A stretch of DNA of 6,331 nucleotides, taken from the NCBI GenBank assembly GCA_023150055.1, contig JAKLLP010000130.1, positions 1-6,331 of the forward strand, given 5' to 3'. The translations under genes and the position numbers were made by a program. Positions within the stretch are counted from its first letter, which is position 1; each line of letters starts with the position of its first letter. The DNA is from Gammaproteobacteria bacterium. GTDB lineage: Bacteria > Pseudomonadota > Gammaproteobacteria > Steroidobacterales > GCA-2729495. The notes under the pieces are model-generated. The model searched no databases. It was not told where the DNA came from and saw only the letters and a list, made by a program, of their open reading frames with translations. Positions 1-6,331 of this stretch are shown one piece after another.

Positions 1-198
1 ATGGCGCGGGGCGGGATCTATCCGCGAAACCTCTGCCTCGAGGAGCCCCCTTTCACCGAGCCCCAGCAACTCGAACTGGTCAAGCACCAGGTCAACAAGA
101 TGGTCGAATGGGGCGTGTATACCCCGCCGCGTGACTGGGAGCCGTACACCGTCAGCGAGGATGTCTCGGAACGGCTGCGCAGGACCGGTAACGAGTAG
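1..198 (+). CDS. C-terminal part of an unidentified protein, possibly an NMT1/THI5-like ABC transporter substrate-binding protein (5' end outside window)
   Basis: An open frame of 65 codons starts at the first base of the window and stops at TAG 196-198. The ATG at base 1 is probably an internal Met, since nothing upstream is visible and the frame may continue outside the window. The fragment is charged and mostly helical in character, with the stretch LVKHQVNKMVEWGVY near residues 26-40. The final segment is rich in Glu and Arg. A helix followed by a short tail of this sort resembles the C-terminus of periplasmic substrate-binding proteins of nitrate/sulfonate/thiamine-precursor transporters, but this is a resemblance by eye and not a firm assignment. 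The gene is convergent with the methyltransferase gene, with only 19 bases between the two stop codons and no clear terminator hairpin there. Confidence 0.5.
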   Translation: MARGGIYPRNLCLEEPPFTEPQQLELVKHQVNKMVEWGVYTPPRDWEPYTVSEDVSERLRRTGNE

Positions 199-217
199 CA
201 GTTGCTGTGCCGGGAAA

Positions 218-841
218 TCAGGGCGGACGGCGAAACCAGTAACGGTCGACGAGAGCCGTGCGCCCCATGAAGAGAGGCATCCGGGTCATGAGCTCGCTGT
301 CGACCGAGTGCAGGCGCACTTCAGGGGCGAAAAGCGCAGTGATCTCGTCGCTGCGGATCCTGTGCGGCCCGATCGGCCACCAATCCCACCAACCGCGTCG
401 GCCGCAATGCGTCAGCACGAAGTCACCGCCCGGTGCGAGCCATTTCAACAGCTGGCTCCTGTAGATTCTGCGCATGTCCCCACCCAGGCTGTGCAGGCAC
501 CCGACATCGAGCACCACGTCATAGGGATGCGGGGGCTCCCACCTGGTAATGTCAGCCTCCACGGCGTCGATGTCGAGGCCGTCGACCGCAGCCCGTCGCC
601 TGAGCATCGCGACTGCCTGGGGCATGAAGTCTATCGCCGTCACCCGGAAACCGCGCCTGGCGAGATAGAGCGAGTAGGTTCCTGCCCCGCAACCGACGTC
701 GAGCGCAGTTCCAGGCGCGTCTCTCCCCGCCAGGGCACGTACCAGCAGCTCGGGTGGTTCTTCCCGGTGCCAGGGCAGGTCCTGGGGGGTCTTTGCTGAT
801 CGGTATAACCGTTCGAATACCTTGCGGCTCTGGTCGCTCAT
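218..841 (-). CDS. Class I SAM-dependent methyltransferase
   Basis: The 207-residue protein is the size of a stand-alone Rossmann-fold methyltransferase and should act in the cytoplasm, transferring a methyl group from S-adenosylmethionine to an unknown acceptor. The SAM-binding motif I reads ALDVGCGAG at residues 46-54. The acidic residue after strand 2 is Asp71 (VTAID), and a second acidic motif follows at residues 94-98 (VEADI). Strand 4 is YDVVLDVG (107-114), and strand 5 is preceded by LLKWLAPGG (131-139). A Trp-rich segment, WWDWWPIGPHR (151-161), probably lies at the acceptor side. The start ATG at 841-839 has only a weak AGG upstream. The gene is third in the minus-strand block, 93 bases downstream of the nitrilase-like gene, so it may be co-transcribed or have its own promoter. 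Thiopurine methyltransferase-like and small-molecule methyltransferases are the nearest types; the substrate cannot be read from sequence. Confidence 0.9.
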   Translation of the reverse strand: MSDQSRKVFERLYRSAKTPQDLPWHREEPPELLVRALAGRDAPGTALDVGCGAGTYSLYLARRGFRVTAIDFMPQAVAMLRRRAAVDGLDIDAVEADITRWEPPHPYDVVLDVGCLHSLGGDMRRIYRSQLLKWLAPGGDFVLTHCGRRGWWDWWPIGPHRIRSDEITALFAPEVRLHSVDSELMTRMPLFMGRTALVDRYWFRRPP

Positions 842-913
842 GATGGAACCTGGCTCGCTGGCGTAGTGGAAGAGATATTACATCGCCTCGAGCAAACGAT
901 GTCGGTGACAAGA

Positions 914-925
914 TTTCCCGGGAAA
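914..925. other. 12-bp perfect palindrome TTTCCCGGGAAA in the gap between two minus-strand genes
   Basis: The sequence is its own reverse complement over 12 bases. It sits in the 93-base gap between the stop of the nitrilase-like gene and the start of the methyltransferase gene. It could be a dimeric regulator site ahead of the methyltransferase gene. It has no spacer for a loop and no U-tract, so it does not look like an intrinsic terminator. It may also be chance in GC-rich DNA. No function is established. Confidence 0.3.
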
Positions 926-934
926 AGACCTTGA

Positions 935-2011
935 CTACCGTTTCGTCAACGCACCGCGTTGCTGCAGACTCGCCACGGAGTCGGCGAATACCTTTGCCGT
1001 GCCGGTGTCATCCATCGGGGGGAGATTCTTCGGCCAGATTCCTTGCTGGTAAATACCCTGGTAGATCTCGGTGCGCAGGTAAGGCAGCCAGTTCTGAAAA
1101 CGCGCGGTCTGACGATAATGGCGCAGGGCGTCTATGTTGATTTCCGATGCGACATAGCAATCGTCCACCACGCTGCTCTGGCCGAGGATCTCGCCCTTGT
1201 AGCCGACGATCATGGACCTGCCGCCCAGGGCGCCGCCGATCACCGTCGGCGGATTGCCGGGCATGATGAGTGCCCCGGTATTGGGGGCTATCACGTAAGC
1301 CGTGTTGTCGACGGCCCTGGCGCGGTTCTGTATGTCCCAGATGTCACGCGATACCCACGGCTCCGGCAGAGAGCCGCGGTAGAGGATCTCGGCGCCGTTC
1401 AGGGCAAAGCCTCGGTAGCTTTCCGGAAACGATCCTTCGACTCCAACACTGCCGGCGATATTGCCAATCTCGGTGTGTGCCACCGGGAAAAAAGCGTCCG
1501 GTCCGTCACCGTTTTCCCGGGTCCACTGGTCGTAGACGTCGTGTGGAGTAGTGGAGTGTTCCACGAACAGCACCACGTTCTTCCGGTGTCGGTAAATGAC
1601 CTGGCCACTCGGATCGAGGAGGAACACCGTGTTGAAAAATCGCTGCGGGTACTGAGGCAGCTTTTCTTTGAGCTGGGCAAGAATGTAGATGCCGTGGTGC
1701 CGCGCCTTCTCGCCCAGGAACTCGGTTTCCCAACCAGGAATGTCCGCAGCCATTGTTGCGGCGTATTCGGCTGATGACAGGTGCAGAATTTCATCCGCAA
1801 AACCCTGGATGCAACCTTCGCCGAGGGCGACCAGGCGCACCGGCAGCTCCAGGGAGCAGATATGGCATACGAGGTCGAGCATGTTGCCGACATGTGCGAG
1901 GTTGCGCTCGACTTCCTGGCGCCGGACAACGTGTCGGACAGTGGTCTGCAAGGCGACGGCAACATAGGGATCGAGCATCGGCATGTCTACGGTACCTGGG
2001 GGTCTGTTCAC
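935..2011 (-). CDS. Nitrilase-superfamily (carbon-nitrogen hydrolase fold) protein lacking the catalytic cysteine
   Basis: The 358-residue protein has the nitrilase layout and a length typical of true nitrilases rather than the shorter amidase branches. The catalytic Glu is E65 in VALGEGCIQGF, and the Lys is K144 in YRHRKNVV. The nucleophile region reads IAGSVGVEGSFPESYRGFALNGAEIL in two overlapping parts: GSVGVEGSFPES (187-198) and RGFALNGAEIL (200-210). The FPE and the R-(x)-FALNGAEIL strand align with the family, but the Cys of the usual Cys-Trp/Tyr-Glu/Asp is G190, encoded by GGA, two substitutions away from a Cys codon. Hydrolysis through a thioester is therefore unlikely. Cys67, two residues after E65, does not occupy the nucleophile position. 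The GTG start at 2011-2009 overlaps the UbiD-like stop as GTGA, which favours this start and translational coupling. In-frame ATGs at codons 10 and 12 are alternatives. The stop is TAG at 937-935. A structural or regulatory role beside the decarboxylase is inferred. Confidence 0.87.
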   Translation of the reverse strand: MNRPPGTVDMPMLDPYVAVALQTTVRHVVRRQEVERNLAHVGNMLDLVCHICSLELPVRLVALGEGCIQGFADEILHLSSAEYAATMAADIPGWETEFLGEKARHHGIYILAQLKEKLPQYPQRFFNTVFLLDPSGQVIYRHRKNVVLFVEHSTTPHDVYDQWTRENGDGPDAFFPVAHTEIGNIAGSVGVEGSFPESYRGFALNGAEILYRGSLPEPWVSRDIWDIQNRARAVDNTAYVIAPNTGALIMPGNPPTVIGGALGGRSMIVGYKGEILGQSSVVDDCYVASEINIDALRHYRQTARFQNWLPYLRTEIYQGIYQQGIWPKNLPPMDDTGTAKVFADSVASLQQRGALTKR

Positions 2012-3420
2012 CTGAGAGCTTCAGGCGAGAGGTAATCGGCGAGATCGATGTCGTCTGCGCCGGGAGTGATTGGCCGGACGAGCGTGTCGCGCAGATCCAT
2101 GTCCATGGTGGCGTCGATACCGAGCCGCAGCGAGCCACGCCCCGGAATGGATACGCGGTCCAGTTCCCAGCTCTCTACACCAGGAATCAACAGGAGTTTT
2201 CCTGGGTGGGAGACGCGGGTCCAGATAGCCCACTCGACGTCCTCGAGGCTGTCCGTGTTGATGTCGGTGTCGACGATGATGATCCGCCTGGTGATACGGT
2301 TCAGTGGAAATATGCTCCCCGGCAGTTCGAATGCCCGACGCAGCAGCTCGGCAGGTTCGTCGTCGGATTGCTTGTCGATCGCTATGGCGATGTGAACCAT
2401 GGGTCCCAGCCGCGGTTCGGTAAAAACATTCACCCGCCGAATGGAAGAGGACAACTGCATCAGGCGCGATGCGATATCAACCTTGATGCCGTAGACCGCA
2501 ATATCGCCGATGTTGTTGTGCTCCGGGTTGCGGCCGGCCATGATCGCGTAGAACAAGGGCTGGTGGCGATGCGTGATCGCGGTGACGCGCGTGATCGGTG
2601 CGGACTCGGGACCGTATTGACCGGCATATTCGCCGAGCGTGTTTTCGATGCGACGGGAGAAGTCGACTTTTCCCTCGATGATGAACTCGGCGCCCGCGGG
2701 CACCAGCAGGTCGCTGGTGCGGGCTTTCATCATCTCGATCGGCGCGCCTTTGAGGCCGCCGGCGACATCGAACTCGGAGATGGTCGGGGGTAGCTTGCAG
2801 GCGGCTGCGAACAACGACGCTGGCTCCACCCCTATGGCAAGCGCGATCGACATCTCCTCGCCATTGGTTTCCGCATGGTGATAGAAACGGCGGAGATCGG
2901 ACAGGGAGCTCGCATTGATGGCGCAGATATCCTTGCCGAGTATCAGCGTCCGGTAAAAGCCCGCATTGAGCACGCCGGTCCTGGGGTGCCGGGCGATCCC
3001 CAGTGCCGCCGTTATGAACGGCCCGCTGTCGCGTTCGAAGAAGTGCGGGACGGGCAGCTCGAGCAGGTTTATGTCCTCGCCCTGGCGCACCACTTCGGCG
3101 GCCGGACCGCTGTCAACCGTGCAGTGCGCGATTGGAGCTGCTTTTGCCGCTTCCACCCGGCGCGCCATATCTGCATGACCGAATCCGGCGTCCGCCACCG
3201 AGCCATCGAGACCGAGGGCAAACCGCTCCACCCGATTGAAGAATCCACCGACCAGTGGAAACGGGCTTCCTTTCACGGATTCAAACTGGTATGCCTTGCC
3301 TGTCGCCTCGAGCTTTGCCATGACGGCTGGCATTTCAAAGCGCGGATCGATCTCGCGCTCGACGCGGACCAGGTCTCCGCGATCTTCGAGCAATTGCTTG
3401 AGCGCACGCAGGTCGGGCAT
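2008..3420 (-). CDS. UbiD-family (prenylated-FMN-type) decarboxylase
   Basis: The 470-residue protein matches the length and full layout of UbiD decarboxylases, which use prenylated FMN to (de)carboxylate aromatic or unsaturated acids. The cofactor/metal region has N152 and R157 in LNAGFYR, the same five-residue spacing as Asn168/Arg173 of fungal Fdc1. A His pair at 181-182 and E216 in SEFDVAGG are candidates for the remaining metal ligands. The two catalytic acids correspond to E259 and E264 in IENTLGEYAGQYG, where many relatives have EGPFGE. The C-terminal part contains the family-typical VDTDIN (383-388) and SHPGK (404-408). The ATG at 3420-3418 is chosen because AGAGGA lies 7 bases upstream; an in-frame GTG 12 codons earlier has no such site. 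No UbiX-type flavin prenyltransferase gene is in the window, so the cofactor must be made elsewhere. The stop overlaps the start of the nitrilase-like gene. The substrate is unknown; this need not be the ubiquinone-pathway enzyme. Confidence 0.93.
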   Translation of the reverse strand: MPDLRALKQLLEDRGDLVRVEREIDPRFEMPAVMAKLEATGKAYQFESVKGSPFPLVGGFFNRVERFALGLDGSVADAGFGHADMARRVEAAKAAPIAHCTVDSGPAAEVVRQGEDINLLELPVPHFFERDSGPFITAALGIARHPRTGVLNAGFYRTLILGKDICAINASSLSDLRRFYHHAETNGEEMSIALAIGVEPASLFAAACKLPPTISEFDVAGGLKGAPIEMMKARTSDLLVPAGAEFIIEGKVDFSRRIENTLGEYAGQYGPESAPITRVTAITHRHQPLFYAIMAGRNPEHNNIGDIAVYGIKVDIASRLMQLSSSIRRVNVFTEPRLGPMVHIAIAIDKQSDDEPAELLRRAFELPGSIFPLNRITRRIIIVDTDINTDSLEDVEWAIWTRVSHPGKLLLIPGVESWELDRVSIPGRGSLRLGIDATMDMDLRDTLVRPITPGADDIDLADYLSPEALR

Positions 3421-3427
3421 CCGTTGT

Positions 3428-3433
3428 TCCTCT
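3428..3433 (-). promoter_or_regulatory. Shine-Dalgarno site of the UbiD-family gene (decides its start)
   Basis: On the minus strand the bases read AGAGGA followed by 7 bases and then ATG at 3420. This is a near-ideal ribosome binding site. The competing GTG at 3456 has no purine-rich site in front of it, so the shorter protein is preferred. Confidence 0.75.
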
Positions 3434-3471
3434 GCCGCAGTTGATTTGCTGAACACCGAGGTCAGGCCGCT

Positions 3472-3477
3472 ATTCTA
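3472..3477 (-). promoter_or_regulatory. Possible -10 element for the UbiD-led operon
   Basis: On the minus strand this is TAGAAT, five of six matches to TATAAT, about 50 bases upstream of the preferred UbiD-family start. No convincing -35 hexamer is seen 16-18 bases further upstream, so it would need an activator or is chance. It lies in the 207-base spacer (3421-3627) between the divergent UbiD-family and NAD(P)-binding genes, the only place in the window where a promoter for the three-gene block is expected. Confidence 0.25.
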
Positions 3478-3614
3478 GAGGTAGGGCTGGCGGACAGGGG
3501 ATCGGCGGCCTGGCGAGTGACCGCAGGGCAGGCACCGAGGCTGCATGCCGGCTAGCGCAGAGGTGGCGCCGGAAATTGCTAAAGTTGTCCCTGGTGTTGT
3601 GAACTGGACAGTGC

Positions 3615-3620
3615 GGAGGA
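3615..3620 (+). promoter_or_regulatory. Shine-Dalgarno site of the NAD(P)-binding protein gene
   Basis: GGAGGA sits 7 bases ahead of the ATG at 3628, a strong ribosome binding site. It fixes the start that includes the signal-peptide-like N-terminus. Confidence 0.8.
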
Positions 3621-3627
3621 GCCGTCA

Positions 3628-4457
3628 ATGCAGTTTTGCGGACGATTCTATTACCCGGTGATTCTCGCAGGCCTGATGGCGGGATGGGCCCCCTCGCTCA
3701 GTGCGGCCGAGGCCGGCGGATCGGCTGGTAATGACCCTTCTCCGCTCGTGGTCGTGGCGGGAGCCACCGGCAAGACCGGACGCCTGACGCTTGGCGCGGC
3801 CGGGGCAAAGGGCTACCGGCTCCGCGCGCTCGCCCGGGACCCCGAGCGGGCAAGGCAGGAGATCGGCGATTCCTTTGAGTGGGCCCGGGCCGACGTGCGC
3901 GACGCGGACTCGCTGCGGCTGGCCCTGCAGGGGGCGACCTACGTGATCTGTGCCATTGGCGCCACCGAGAGATCCGGGCCGAACAGCCCCGAGTTCGTCG
4001 ACTATGGCGGCGTCCGGAATCTTACTGACGCTGCCCGCGAGGCCGGTGTGCGCCACTTGGTGCTGGTGTCTTCTGTCGGTGTCGATGGTGGTGGTGGCGT
4101 CTTCAGCTGGATTCTCAATACCTTGATCATGCCTGGGATTCTCGACTGGAAGGCTAAAGGGGAGGACCACCTGCGGTCGAGCGGGGTTCCGTTCCCTACA
4201 CCATTCTGCGGCCTGGCGGGCTGACGGATGATGAAGGGGGCAAGATCGGCATCCGTATCGCACCGAGGGGCCTGCTCGGGGGTGGCACGATTGCGCGAGC
4301 GGACGTTGCCGCTGTTGCCGTCCATGTCCTCGGACGGACGGATGCGGTCGGCAGGACCCTGGAACTGTCAGGCGACGACAAGGCGCCCGTGCTGAGCTGG
4401 CAACAGCTGCTGACCTCCGTTCCGATCGATGAACCGCCCGGTGCTACCAGCCGCTGA
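3628..4457 (+). pseudogene. Frameshifted NAD(P)-binding atypical SDR / NmrA-like protein with N-terminal signal peptide
   Basis: The reading frame opens at ATG 3628 and ends early at TGA 4222-4224, giving 198 residues. The rest of the domain continues in another frame to TGA 4455-4457. Residues 41-52 read VVVAGATGKTGR, the glycine-rich NAD(P)-binding loop of atypical short-chain dehydrogenases. LVLVSSVGVDG follows at 144-154. After the break, the other frame supplies PYTILRPGGL, the usual SDR continuation of SGVP, and runs to ...PPGATSR. The cause is a duplicated GTTCC at 4186-4195; removing 5 bases gives one 274-residue frame without other changes. The N-terminus has a hydrophobic run (residues 8-20) followed by APSLSAAEA, a plausible Sec signal peptide cleaved near residues 26-29. 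That is unusual for a nucleotide-dependent enzyme and implies a periplasmic or membrane-linked role. The unbroken remainder suggests a recent mutation or a sequence error. The truncated product would lack the C-terminal third. The gene may simply be intact in the organism. Confidence 0.85.
4186..4195 (+). repeat. 5-bp tandem duplication GTTCC x2 causing the frameshift
   Basis: Two adjacent copies of GTTCC occur within the SGVP codons of the NAD(P)-binding gene. With one copy the codons read gtt ccc tac acc (Val-Pro-Tyr-Thr), the family consensus. With both copies the frame is thrown off and stops 30 bases later. This is the signature of replication slippage or a read/assembly artefact. Confidence 0.85.
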
Positions 4458-4492
4458 ACTAGCCGTTGCAGGGCCGAAAGCTGGCCGGGCAA

Positions 4493-4506
4493 GCGCTGCA
4501 GAGCGC
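4493..4506. terminator. Weak hairpin between convergent genes
   Basis: GCGCT and AGCGC form a 5-bp stem with a GCAG loop, in the 107-base gap (4458-4564) between the convergent NAD(P)-binding gene and the hydrolase gene. GGG upstream and CCC downstream could lengthen it across a bulge. A second small stem, GGCC-(7)-GGCC, lies just before it at 4472-4486. No T-tract follows on either strand, so a role as intrinsic terminator is only possible. Nothing else is seen in this gap. Confidence 0.2.
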
Positions 4507-4564
4507 CCCTCGCTGATCGAGCCGACGCGGCGACTTGCACCGGTGATGAGGGTTGCGGGCAGGG

Positions 4565-5236
4565 TCAGCGTCCCTTGCGCGCGGTCAGCCAGTCCCGGAC
4601 GGTAGTGAACGGTTCGACATCGGCATACTTCAACATCATGTCGCAGAGGTTTGCGAAATGGGGGATCTCATGACGATCGGCCACGCATTCCTCGACGACG
4701 ACGGTGCGATACCCGCGCGAAAGTGAATCGACGGCACTCGCCCGCACGCATCCCGATGTGCTTCCCCCGGTCAGTATGACGGTGTCGACCTGGTGCCAGA
4801 CCAGCAGGGACGGGATCGGTGTCTCGTGGAAGACGCTCGCCATGCGCTTGTTGAAAATCGCATCTCGCTGCCGGTCGATGGCGAGACGCGGATCGAGTTC
4901 GGCGCGAGCCGAGCCGAGCTTGATGTTTTGCAATGAGTCGGGCGTGTCGGACCTCGTGCCCCAGACACCTGCGTCGTCGGCATTGTCCATGTAGGCCACG
5001 TACGTCCAGATGACCGGCATGGCGCAGGATCGCGTCAGCGCGGAGAGTTCGTTGATCCAGGCGAGTTGCCGGGGATGGGTCTCGTAGGCGGTCGAGAAAG
5101 TGCTGGTGTCCGTATAGGCGCGCTGCAGGTCGATGTTGATCAATGCCGCCTTGCGGCCAAAACCGAAGCGGGCGCGATTCGGCCGGGAACGCACTTGTTC
5201 CCAGTACTGCCGGGCGGTGAGCTTGGATGTTTCCAT
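4565..5236 (-). CDS. Cysteine hydrolase of the isochorismatase / N-carbamoylsarcosine amidohydrolase family
   Basis: The 223-residue protein belongs to the isochorismatase-like cysteine hydrolases, cytoplasmic enzymes that split amide or ether bonds of small molecules. The triad is complete: D36 in ALINIDLQRAYTD, K130 in FNKRMASVF, and the nucleophile C163 in TGGSTSGCVRASAVD, where the usual cis-peptide precedes the cysteine region. The C-terminal block DRHEIPHFANLCDMMLKYADV (within 187-207) is the pattern of N-carbamoylsarcosine and maleamate amidohydrolases, so an amide substrate is more likely than isochorismate. The start ATG at 5236-5234 is chosen because homology begins shortly after it and a promoter-like pair lies about 40 bases upstream. 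The ribosome binding site is poor. The frame stays open upstream to 6295, but that part is antisense to the ribonucleotide reductase. It is divergent from the reductase gene and convergent with the NAD(P)-binding gene. The exact substrate is unknown. Confidence 0.92.
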   Translation of the reverse strand: METSKLTARQYWEQVRSRPNRARFGFGRKAALINIDLQRAYTDTSTFSTAYETHPRQLAWINELSALTRSCAMPVIWTYVAYMDNADDAGVWGTRSDTPDSLQNIKLGSARAELDPRLAIDRQRDAIFNKRMASVFHETPIPSLLVWHQVDTVILTGGSTSGCVRASAVDSLSRGYRTVVVEECVADRHEIPHFANLCDMMLKYADVEPFTTVRDWLTARKGR

Positions 5237-5275
5237 GGTGCGACTCGGCGCCGGTCCCGGCGGGTTACCATCAAA

Positions 5276-5304
5276 ATCGTAAACACCGGCTCCACGCCCG
5301 GCAA
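5276..5304 (-). promoter_or_regulatory. Candidate sigma-70-type promoter for the cysteine hydrolase
   Basis: On the minus strand TTGCCG (5304-5299) and TACGAT (5281-5276) are separated by exactly 17 bases, each matching four of six consensus bases. Transcription would begin near 5269, leaving a leader of about 33 bases before the ATG at 5236. It lies in the 222-base divergent spacer (5237-5458), where a promoter is expected. For the plus-strand reductase, only a lone TAATAT at 5341-5346 without a -35 partner is seen. Confidence 0.35.
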
Positions 5305-5458
5305 CGCCCGAATGACCGATGGCCCGATCGACGAGCGCGTTAATATCGAAGCTGGCGTCCACCAGGGCAGGGATGCACGGAGCAGGCAGGGGGCTGGCGG
5401 GGCTAGTGCCGTTGCGGCGCTGCTGCTGCCGTCTCCGGGGATACTCTGGAAAGAAGCC

Positions 5459-6331
5459 ATGACCACTCCTGAGGACGACTGGCCCGAGATCTCCCAACGC
5501 ATATGGGCGGCCCGCTACCGCTGGGACAAGGAGGCCGACATCCGCCAGAGCTGGCGCCGTGTAGCCTCGGCCGTCGCCTCGGTCGAGCAGACGGATCAGC
5601 CGGGCTGGGCGAGACGATTCGAGGATCTTCTCACGGGGTTCCGCTTTCTGCCGGGCGGGCGCATCCTGGCGGGTGCGGGGACACCACACCAGGTGACGCT
5701 CCTTAATTGCTTCGTGATGGGGACGGTCGAGGATTCGCTCGATGGCATCTTCGAGGCGCTCAAGGAGGGCGCCCGGACAATGCAGAGCGGCGGTGGCATC
5801 GGCTACGATTTTTCGACGCTGAGGCCCTACGGCTGGCCCGCCAGGACGAGTGGCACCATAGCTTCCGGCCCCGTCTCGTTTTTGCGGATATGGGATGCGA
5901 TGTGCGCCACGCTGTTGTCCACCGGCGCCCGCCGGGGCGCGATGATGGCCACCCTGCGCTGTGACCATCCCGACATCGAACGTTTCGTGGATGCCAAGCG
6001 CGAGGCGGGCGCCTTGGCGCACTTCAACCTGTCCGTACAGATTACCGATGACTTCATGGCAGCCGTCAGGGCGGGGGCCGACTGGCCGCTGGTGTATCCC
6101 ATGGCGACAGGAGAAAGCGCCTCTGGGCCCGTCCTGGACCGTGTCTGGAGCGCCGACCGGCGGGCGCAGAAATGTCGGGTCGCGCGTGTCGTCCCTGCCC
6201 GCGAGCTTTGGTTGCGAATCCTGCGCGCCGCTTACGACAGTGCGGAACCAGGCGTGCTGTTCGTCGACCAGATCAACCGGGAGAACAATCTGCACGATCA
6301 GGAGCAGCTGTCGGCAACGAACCCCTGCGGA
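5459..6331 (+). CDS. nrdJ: Class II (adenosylcobalamin-dependent) ribonucleotide reductase, N-terminal 291 residues (3' end outside window)
   Basis: The frame is open from ATG 5459 to the last base and lacks a stop only because the window ends. The enzyme reduces ribonucleotides to deoxyribonucleotides in the cytoplasm using a thiyl radical made with coenzyme B12. Residues 64-69 (LPGGRI) and TLLNCFVMG (80-88) hold the first redox cysteine, C84. SGGGIGYDFSTLRP (110-123) and STGARRGAMMATL (154-166) are core barrel motifs, and FNLSVQITD (189-197) carries the substrate-contacting Asn-Leu-Ser-Val. The last residues, SATNPCG, contain N288 and the radical cysteine C290; the following Glu is beyond the end. 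There is no N-terminal ATP-cone, so dATP inhibition of the classical type is not expected. The class II call rests on the overall pattern; the C-terminal part needed to confirm it is missing. An in-frame ATG at 5312 exists, but the family-like N-terminus begins at 5459. A GGA 8 bases upstream is a modest ribosome binding site. Confidence 0.93.
   Translation, partial: MTTPEDDWPEISQRIWAARYRWDKEADIRQSWRRVASAVASVEQTDQPGWARRFEDLLTGFRFLPGGRILAGAGTPHQVTLLNCFVMGTVEDSLDGIFEALKEGARTMQSGGGIGYDFSTLRPYGWPARTSGTIASGPVSFLRIWDAMCATLLSTGARRGAMMATLRCDHPDIERFVDAKREAGALAHFNLSVQITDDFMAAVRAGADWPLVYPMATGESASGPVLDRVWSADRRAQKCRVARVVPARELWLRILRAAYDSAEPGVLFVDQINRENNLHDQEQLSATNPCG

Follow-up and report, generated by a model that had tools for sequence, protein, structure and literature searches.

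A nitrilase-fold protein family with glycine in place of the catalytic cysteine, encoded beside a UbiD-family decarboxylase

What does a nitrilase-fold protein do when the cysteine which defines its superfamily is replaced by glycine, and is such a replacement real? This question is raised by a stretch of 6,331 nucleotides from a Gammaproteobacteria bacterium (GCA_023150055.1, contig JAKLLP010000130.1, positions 1 to 6,331), in the following called the window. A gene on its reverse strand, the Gly gene, codes for a protein with Gly at the position of the nucleophile. The original prediction, made from the letters of the window alone, had described the product as a nitrilase-fold protein in which Gly replaces the catalytic Cys and had proposed that it may be a non-hydrolytic binding or assembly partner. 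The features on which the argument turns are these:

935..2011, minus strand: nucleophile-less nitrilase-fold (CN_hydrolase) gene of the "G family", 358 amino acids counted from the GTG at 2011
1442..1444, minus strand: Gly190, codon GGA, in the place of the catalytic Cys
1817..1819, minus strand: Glu65, catalytic-base position, common to the Cys families
1580..1582, minus strand: Lys144, oxyanion-Lys position, common to the Cys families
1559..1561, minus strand: Glu151, position of the second active-site Glu, common to the Cys families
2008..3456, minus strand: gene for a UbiD-family decarboxylase, immediately upstream, with a stop that overlaps the GTG start of the Gly gene
1..198, plus strand: last 65 codons of a Cys-bearing sister gene ("C family"), convergent with the Gly gene

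The profile PF00795 covers residues 35-300 of the open reading frame 935-2011 (E 3.9e-26; 92.4 bits against a gathering score of 23.2), and the predicted model of the Gly protein has the alpha-beta-beta-alpha fold of the solved nitrilase superfamily members. By profile score, fold and the presence of the catalytic Glu and Lys the protein belongs to this superfamily, but the catalytic Cys of the hydrolytic members is lacking and the superfamily motif C-x-E-x-x-[FY]-P-E appears as G-V-E-G-S-F-P-E. The aliphatic amidase profile NCBIfam NF009802 reaches 42.7 bits, which is below its curated cut-off of 427. The gene starts at GTG 2011 or at an internal ATG at 1984 or 1978, and its homologues begin at the internal ATG. 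Sequence and predicted model bear out both the nitrilase fold and the exchange of the catalytic Cys for Gly; Glu65 and Lys144 had been assigned correctly, while Glu151 had not been named in the original prediction.

The homologue set of the Gly protein comprised 120 listed of 411 matches with 65-99% identity, which were aligned together with the window sequence (n = 121); the match P0001 (99% identity), to which no outside source is attached, may be the window sequence itself. Gly190, Glu65, Lys144 and Glu151 are each present in 121 of the 121 proteins, and a close homologue with Cys at position 190, which would have spoken against the prediction, was not found among the 120 listed. At the DNA level 38 of the 39 loci taken from named genomes are of the Gly type, the remaining one (L051) having matched the sister type only; by their titles the loci come mostly from gammaproteobacterial metagenome-assembled genomes, together with two alphaproteobacterial bins and one Dehalococcoidia bin. 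Together with the window all 39 genes read as DNA code for Gly, by GGC in 16, GGT in 16, GGA in four and GGG in three cases, and 32 of the 39 codons are a single base away from a Cys codon without any of them being one.

An essential catalytic residue has been lost here, and the assembly containing the window is 73% complete and split into 517 contigs, which would fit either a pseudogene-like copy in decay or an artefact of sequencing or assembly. We regard this explanation as extremely improbable and rejected it: Gly is fixed through all four of its codons in 39 of 39 genes, which argues against sequencing error and drift alike, and for the Gly gene the ratio of nonsynonymous to synonymous substitution rates (dN/dS, NG86), taken over 122 pairs, is 0.16 in the median and 0.42 at most (sequences with N and pairs outside dS 0.05-1.5 excluded). 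The original view that a simple sequencing error is unlikely was right, and Gly190 in place of the catalytic Cys is confirmed as a real feature of the family.

Has another residue taken over the part of the nucleophile? Cys67, which had been put forward as a possible counter-case, does not hold, as its position is variable and occupied by Ala in 75 of the 121 proteins. Cys52 is present in 119/119 proteins of the Gly clade, in 103/117 sister proteins and in 1/120 outgroup proteins. A nucleophile role for Cys52 seems unlikely because these 103 sisters possess the catalytic Cys as well. Compared with positions at which at least 90% of both Cys families share one residue, the Gly clade shows five changes, C190G, L202F, Y215L, N222R and D311Y, and of these N222R, without exception in the Gly clade, may point to a carboxylate as ligand, to which an Arg would be suited. 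Rows P0001, P0046 and P0107 were left out of a further count. According to PMC10741476, the C233A and C233S mutants of human beta-ureidopropionase, which has the same fold, are inactive. Because of this inactivity and because there is no obvious substitute nucleophile, the Gly protein is probably non-hydrolytic. The original interpretation is thereby upheld in part: the fold and the Gly stand, and for a non-hydrolytic protein there is a strong indication by analogy.

The related families retain the Cys. The sister protein taken as reference (L016:12076-13209) has it at residue 182, and in its family, for which 120 of 469 homologues were listed, Cys occurs in 120 of 121 proteins: 117 of the 118 rows in the alignment have it, and so do P0180, P0230 and P0237, which were excluded from the alignment and whose motif was read separately. 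All 26 sister copies called within the 39 loci contain Cys, and so does L051. In the L060 type, the nearest outgroup that we found, Cys is present in 121/121 proteins (L060 and 120 listed of 3597) alongside an unchanged Glu, Lys and second Glu, and the idea that Gly is a feature of a wider clade was rejected on this count. Among 23 paralogues of intermediate score in the same relatives, 13 were fetched and 12 of these could be read, all 12 with Cys; in the thirteenth, L093, there is no readable frame. In a midpoint-rooted tree with several long branches 18 Gly rows form one clade (support 99/99), 18 sister rows form another (100/100) and two Ala-bearing rows make up a third group; the branching order among the groups is not resolved. 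Mean conservation, calculated after dropping rows P0046, P0107, P0180, P0230 and P0237, is 0.81 in the Gly family against 0.83 and 0.82 in the two Cys families. Since the related families keep the Cys, these comparisons indicate that one clade has lost the nucleophile and maintains the loss under purifying selection.

The Cys is also missing in some other proteins. P0213, known from one contig, is the only listed protein of the sister family in which Gly stands where the others have Cys; its Glu and Lys are intact. L061 and L062, distant relatives with their own tree group, carry Ala instead (MMAMEGSYPE and MMANEASYPE). In the window's own genome the CN_hydrolase paralogues L003, L004, L006 and L007 are without Cys, two of them having Ser for Cys and Arg for Lys and the other two a gap of two residues at the motif; the paralogue L001 has the Cys.

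What, then, is the partner of the Gly protein? The upstream gene matches PF01977 (E 7.6e-54), PF20695 and PF20696, and with 259.8 bits against a cut-off of 244.85 for NCBIfam TIGR00148 its product belongs to the UbiD family; its closest solved relatives by sequence are 6h6x and 6h6v, which we take to be the furan/pyrrole-carboxylate enzyme HmfF. A UbiD gene lies directly 5′ of the Gly gene and on the same strand in all 38 other loci as well as in the window (39/39); in the 38 loci the two genes overlap by up to 6 bases or lie up to 79 bases apart. Homologues that share this gene neighbour, which the original prediction had proposed to inspect, all carry the Gly (39/39). UbiD-family decarboxylases with helper proteins are known, for example those with VdcD-type small subunits and phenylphosphate carboxylase, and like these systems the UbiD of the window has a tightly linked second gene. 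We know of no UbiD with a nitrilase-fold helper. Among the papers listed from the open literature, in two sets 15 of 280 and 15 of 233, and judged by titles and the beginnings of abstracts, we found no account of a nitrilase-fold family without Cys or of UbiD paired with a nitrilase, and no open paper combining UbiD, a carbon-nitrogen hydrolase and a gene cluster.

The second candidate is the Cys sister, whose gene had not been noticed in the original prediction. It is cut by the contig end, so that the Cys position lies outside the window; the fragment has 73% identity over 64 amino acids to the L016 sister and matches the family profile with E 9.1e-31. Gly protein and Cys sister are 35-38% identical and share the predicted fold and the neighbourhood, but the sister has Cys (120/121), is encoded on the other strand and has a longer C-terminus. 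We searched 196 genomes of relatives, the window's own included, counting matches of more than 440 bits as Gly genes; families were assigned by bit score alone and the partial hits G412:C1, G420:C86 and G485:C15 were left out. The Gly gene was found in 39 of the 196 genomes and the full sister in 34 of these 39. In the 31 genomes with both genes on the same contig they are convergent without exception (31/31), the matches lying 90-7441 bases apart. Sister matches of at least 522 bits, one of them interrupted by stops, were present in 19 of 20 named-locus genomes, with G385 as the genome lacking a sister; these genomes stand for 20 of the 38 Gly loci and overlap the 196-genome set, so that the two counts are not independent. 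The Fisher p of 2e-30 for the genome table takes no account of kinship, and we do not rely on it.

The five Gly genomes without a full sister are the window's own (truncated), G406 and G460, in which the Gly gene sits at a contig end, and G400 and G418. Directly after the Gly gene of G400 there are isochorismatase and PuuE-like genes, between which and the Gly gene L035 has the sister, and in G418 the sister is absent between the genes that flank it in L048. Conversely, G407 and G412 scored for Cys only; the contig of G407 stops about 0.5 kb beyond the Cys gene, and in G412 a Gly-family fragment follows UbiD at the end of a contig but falls short of position 190. The pairing of Gly gene and sister is thus usual, not universal (G400, G418, G385). 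A catalytic residue lost throughout a family together with a Cys paralogue in the same genome (34/39) is the pattern of a pseudoenzyme with its paralogue.

This pattern raises the possibility that the Gly protein regulates the Cys sister through mixed dimers or spirals and tunes activity or assembly in response to a ligand, as pairs of active and inactive paralogues do in other systems. We consider this unlikely. The two genes lie on opposite strands and do not form one operon, Gly and UbiD genes are present in G400 and G418 where the sister is missing from its usual place and was not found in the genome, G385 has no sister either (all in assemblies that may be incomplete), and the distance correlation between Gly and Cys proteins over 15 loci is not raised (0.81). 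In G400 and G418, where the sister is absent from its usual place, UbiD still adjoins the Gly gene, and because this tie holds even without the sister, UbiD would be the likeliest partner and the sister the next.

Our preferred reading, which we hold tentatively and with somewhat less than even confidence, is that the Gly protein would act as a ligand-sensing partner dedicated to the UbiD decarboxylase of the upstream gene, that it would bind, but not cut, an amide or carboxylic-acid intermediate, and that the Cys sister would probably perform the hydrolysis in the same pathway. Co-transcription of the Gly and UbiD genes and a physical partnership of their products would belong to this arrangement. 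Binding without cutting is predicted because Cys has changed to Gly while Glu-Lys-Glu was kept, and by analogy with Cys mutants of solved relatives: by the titles of their entries, the nucleophile-less mutants 6ypa (C146A, with glutaramide) and 8hpc (C171A) hold substrate. That the triad is invariant suggests that the pocket is in use. For the inactive beta-ureidopropionase C233S, PMC10741476 describes a shift to larger oligomers in size-exclusion runs when substrate was added. The role of a binding or assembly partner, as originally proposed, fits the UbiD linkage and the neighbouring Cys sister gene.

Several observations weigh against a dedicated UbiD partner that only binds. The adjacency to UbiD can reflect no more than common regulation or a common pathway. 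Distance correlations over 15 loci revealed no special coupling between Gly protein and UbiD: they give no signal, because the pairs with the molybdenum (Mo) enzyme, a non-homologous neighbour enzyme used as control, are equally high (Gly-UbiD r 0.91, Gly-Mo enzyme 0.92, UbiD-Mo 0.97, Gly-sister 0.81); partial correlations over 22 loci are 0.58 for Gly-UbiD and 0.39 for Gly-sister. The analogy to assembly is not clean either, since the cryo-EM sample of C233S with substrate gave dimers only, as stated in PMC10741476. Finally, the full retention of Glu-Lys-Glu could just as well go with retained chemistry, and eight polar residues, Thr23, Asp46, His50, Glu55, Thr155, Arg222, Asp284 and Tyr311, are fixed in the Gly clade and occur in less than 50% of both Cys families. 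None of the eight occupies the nucleophile position, and one of them may have taken a new role.

These last points lead to a working enzyme without the usual nucleophile, in which Glu65, Lys144 and Glu151, with or without the clade-specific polar residues, would act directly on a bound substrate; they might, for instance, activate water, or isomerise or hydrate an unsaturated acid or amide for UbiD. Every other known active-site residue is invariant, polar residues including His50, Thr155, Arg222 and Tyr311 are fixed solely in the Gly clade, and conservation is on a par with the Cys families. We nevertheless think such an enzyme rather unlikely, as the Cys-to-Ala and Cys-to-Ser mutants are inactive in the one relative looked up (PMC10741476), and as the Gly loop is less certain in the model (predicted local distance difference test, pLDDT, of 73 for residues 181-190), without the helical turn present in the model of the Cys sister. 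That the natural Glu-Lys-Glu plus Gly site catalyses a new non-covalent reaction coupled to the UbiD decarboxylase seems to us improbable too.

Set beside solved proteins, the Gly protein has 21-22% identity in structural alignment to the aliphatic amidase/formamidase branch (2plq, 4lf0, 2uxy, 2e2k), from which it differs by the Gly for Cys and by the UbiD linkage. With beta-ureidopropionase (8pt4, 2vhh), whose oligomers are driven by ligand, it shares the fold, and Glu, Lys and second Glu of the Cys-Glu-Lys-Glu tetrad have their counterparts; in contrast to the Gly family, the Cys of that enzyme is present and needed, and its Cys-less forms are laboratory mutants (PMC10741476). The source labels "hydrolase" and "predicted amidohydrolase" on some Gly-clade proteins are probably wrong.

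Further genes in the window are:

218-841, minus strand: gene for an S-adenosylmethionine (SAM) methyltransferase, flanked by the Gly gene and the end of the sister
3628-4224, plus strand: NAD(P)-binding NmrA-like open reading frame, covering 1-137 of the 184 positions of the Pfam model, then a stop
4565-5236, minus strand: isochorismatase-domain hydrolase (PF00857, E 8.4e-24)
5459-6331, plus strand: beginning of a ribonucleotide reductase gene, truncated where the window ends; its best match in NCBIfam is the adenosylcobalamin-dependent NrdJ

The flanks inspected in the 39 loci measured no more than 10 kb, many of them less, and the counts of recurring neighbours are therefore lower bounds. 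A molybdopterin oxidoreductase (TIGR03479-like) occurs in at least 22 of the 39 loci, followed by MFS transporters (at least 15 and 6), a DsbA-like protein (at least 15), an acyl-CoA ligase (at least 13), Amidohydro_2 proteins (at least 8 and 8), an isochorismatase (at least 6), a cytochrome c, a PuuE-like deacetylase and a Fe_bilin_red protein (at least 5 each) and an F420/LLM oxidoreductase (at least 3). As a guess, the cluster might serve the catabolism of a nitrogen-containing ring or imide. The Fe_bilin_red protein resembles ferredoxin-dependent bilin reductases (PF05996, E 3.6e-16) and was seen in L048 (6866-7567, minus strand), L043, L046, L047 and L051. The window's genome has such a gene elsewhere (G000:C344:976-1650), and among the 196 relatives it was found in 20, of which 15 are also among the 39 that carry the Gly gene.

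What defines the nitrilase superfamily is its Cys nucleophile, and the Gly clade is a natural counterpart of the Cys-to-Ala trap which crystallographers make by hand. It allows the Glu-Lys-Glu pocket to be studied without its nucleophile, be it that the pocket binds, senses or catalyses, and it makes the Gly protein a candidate nitrilase-fold partner for UbiD enzymes.
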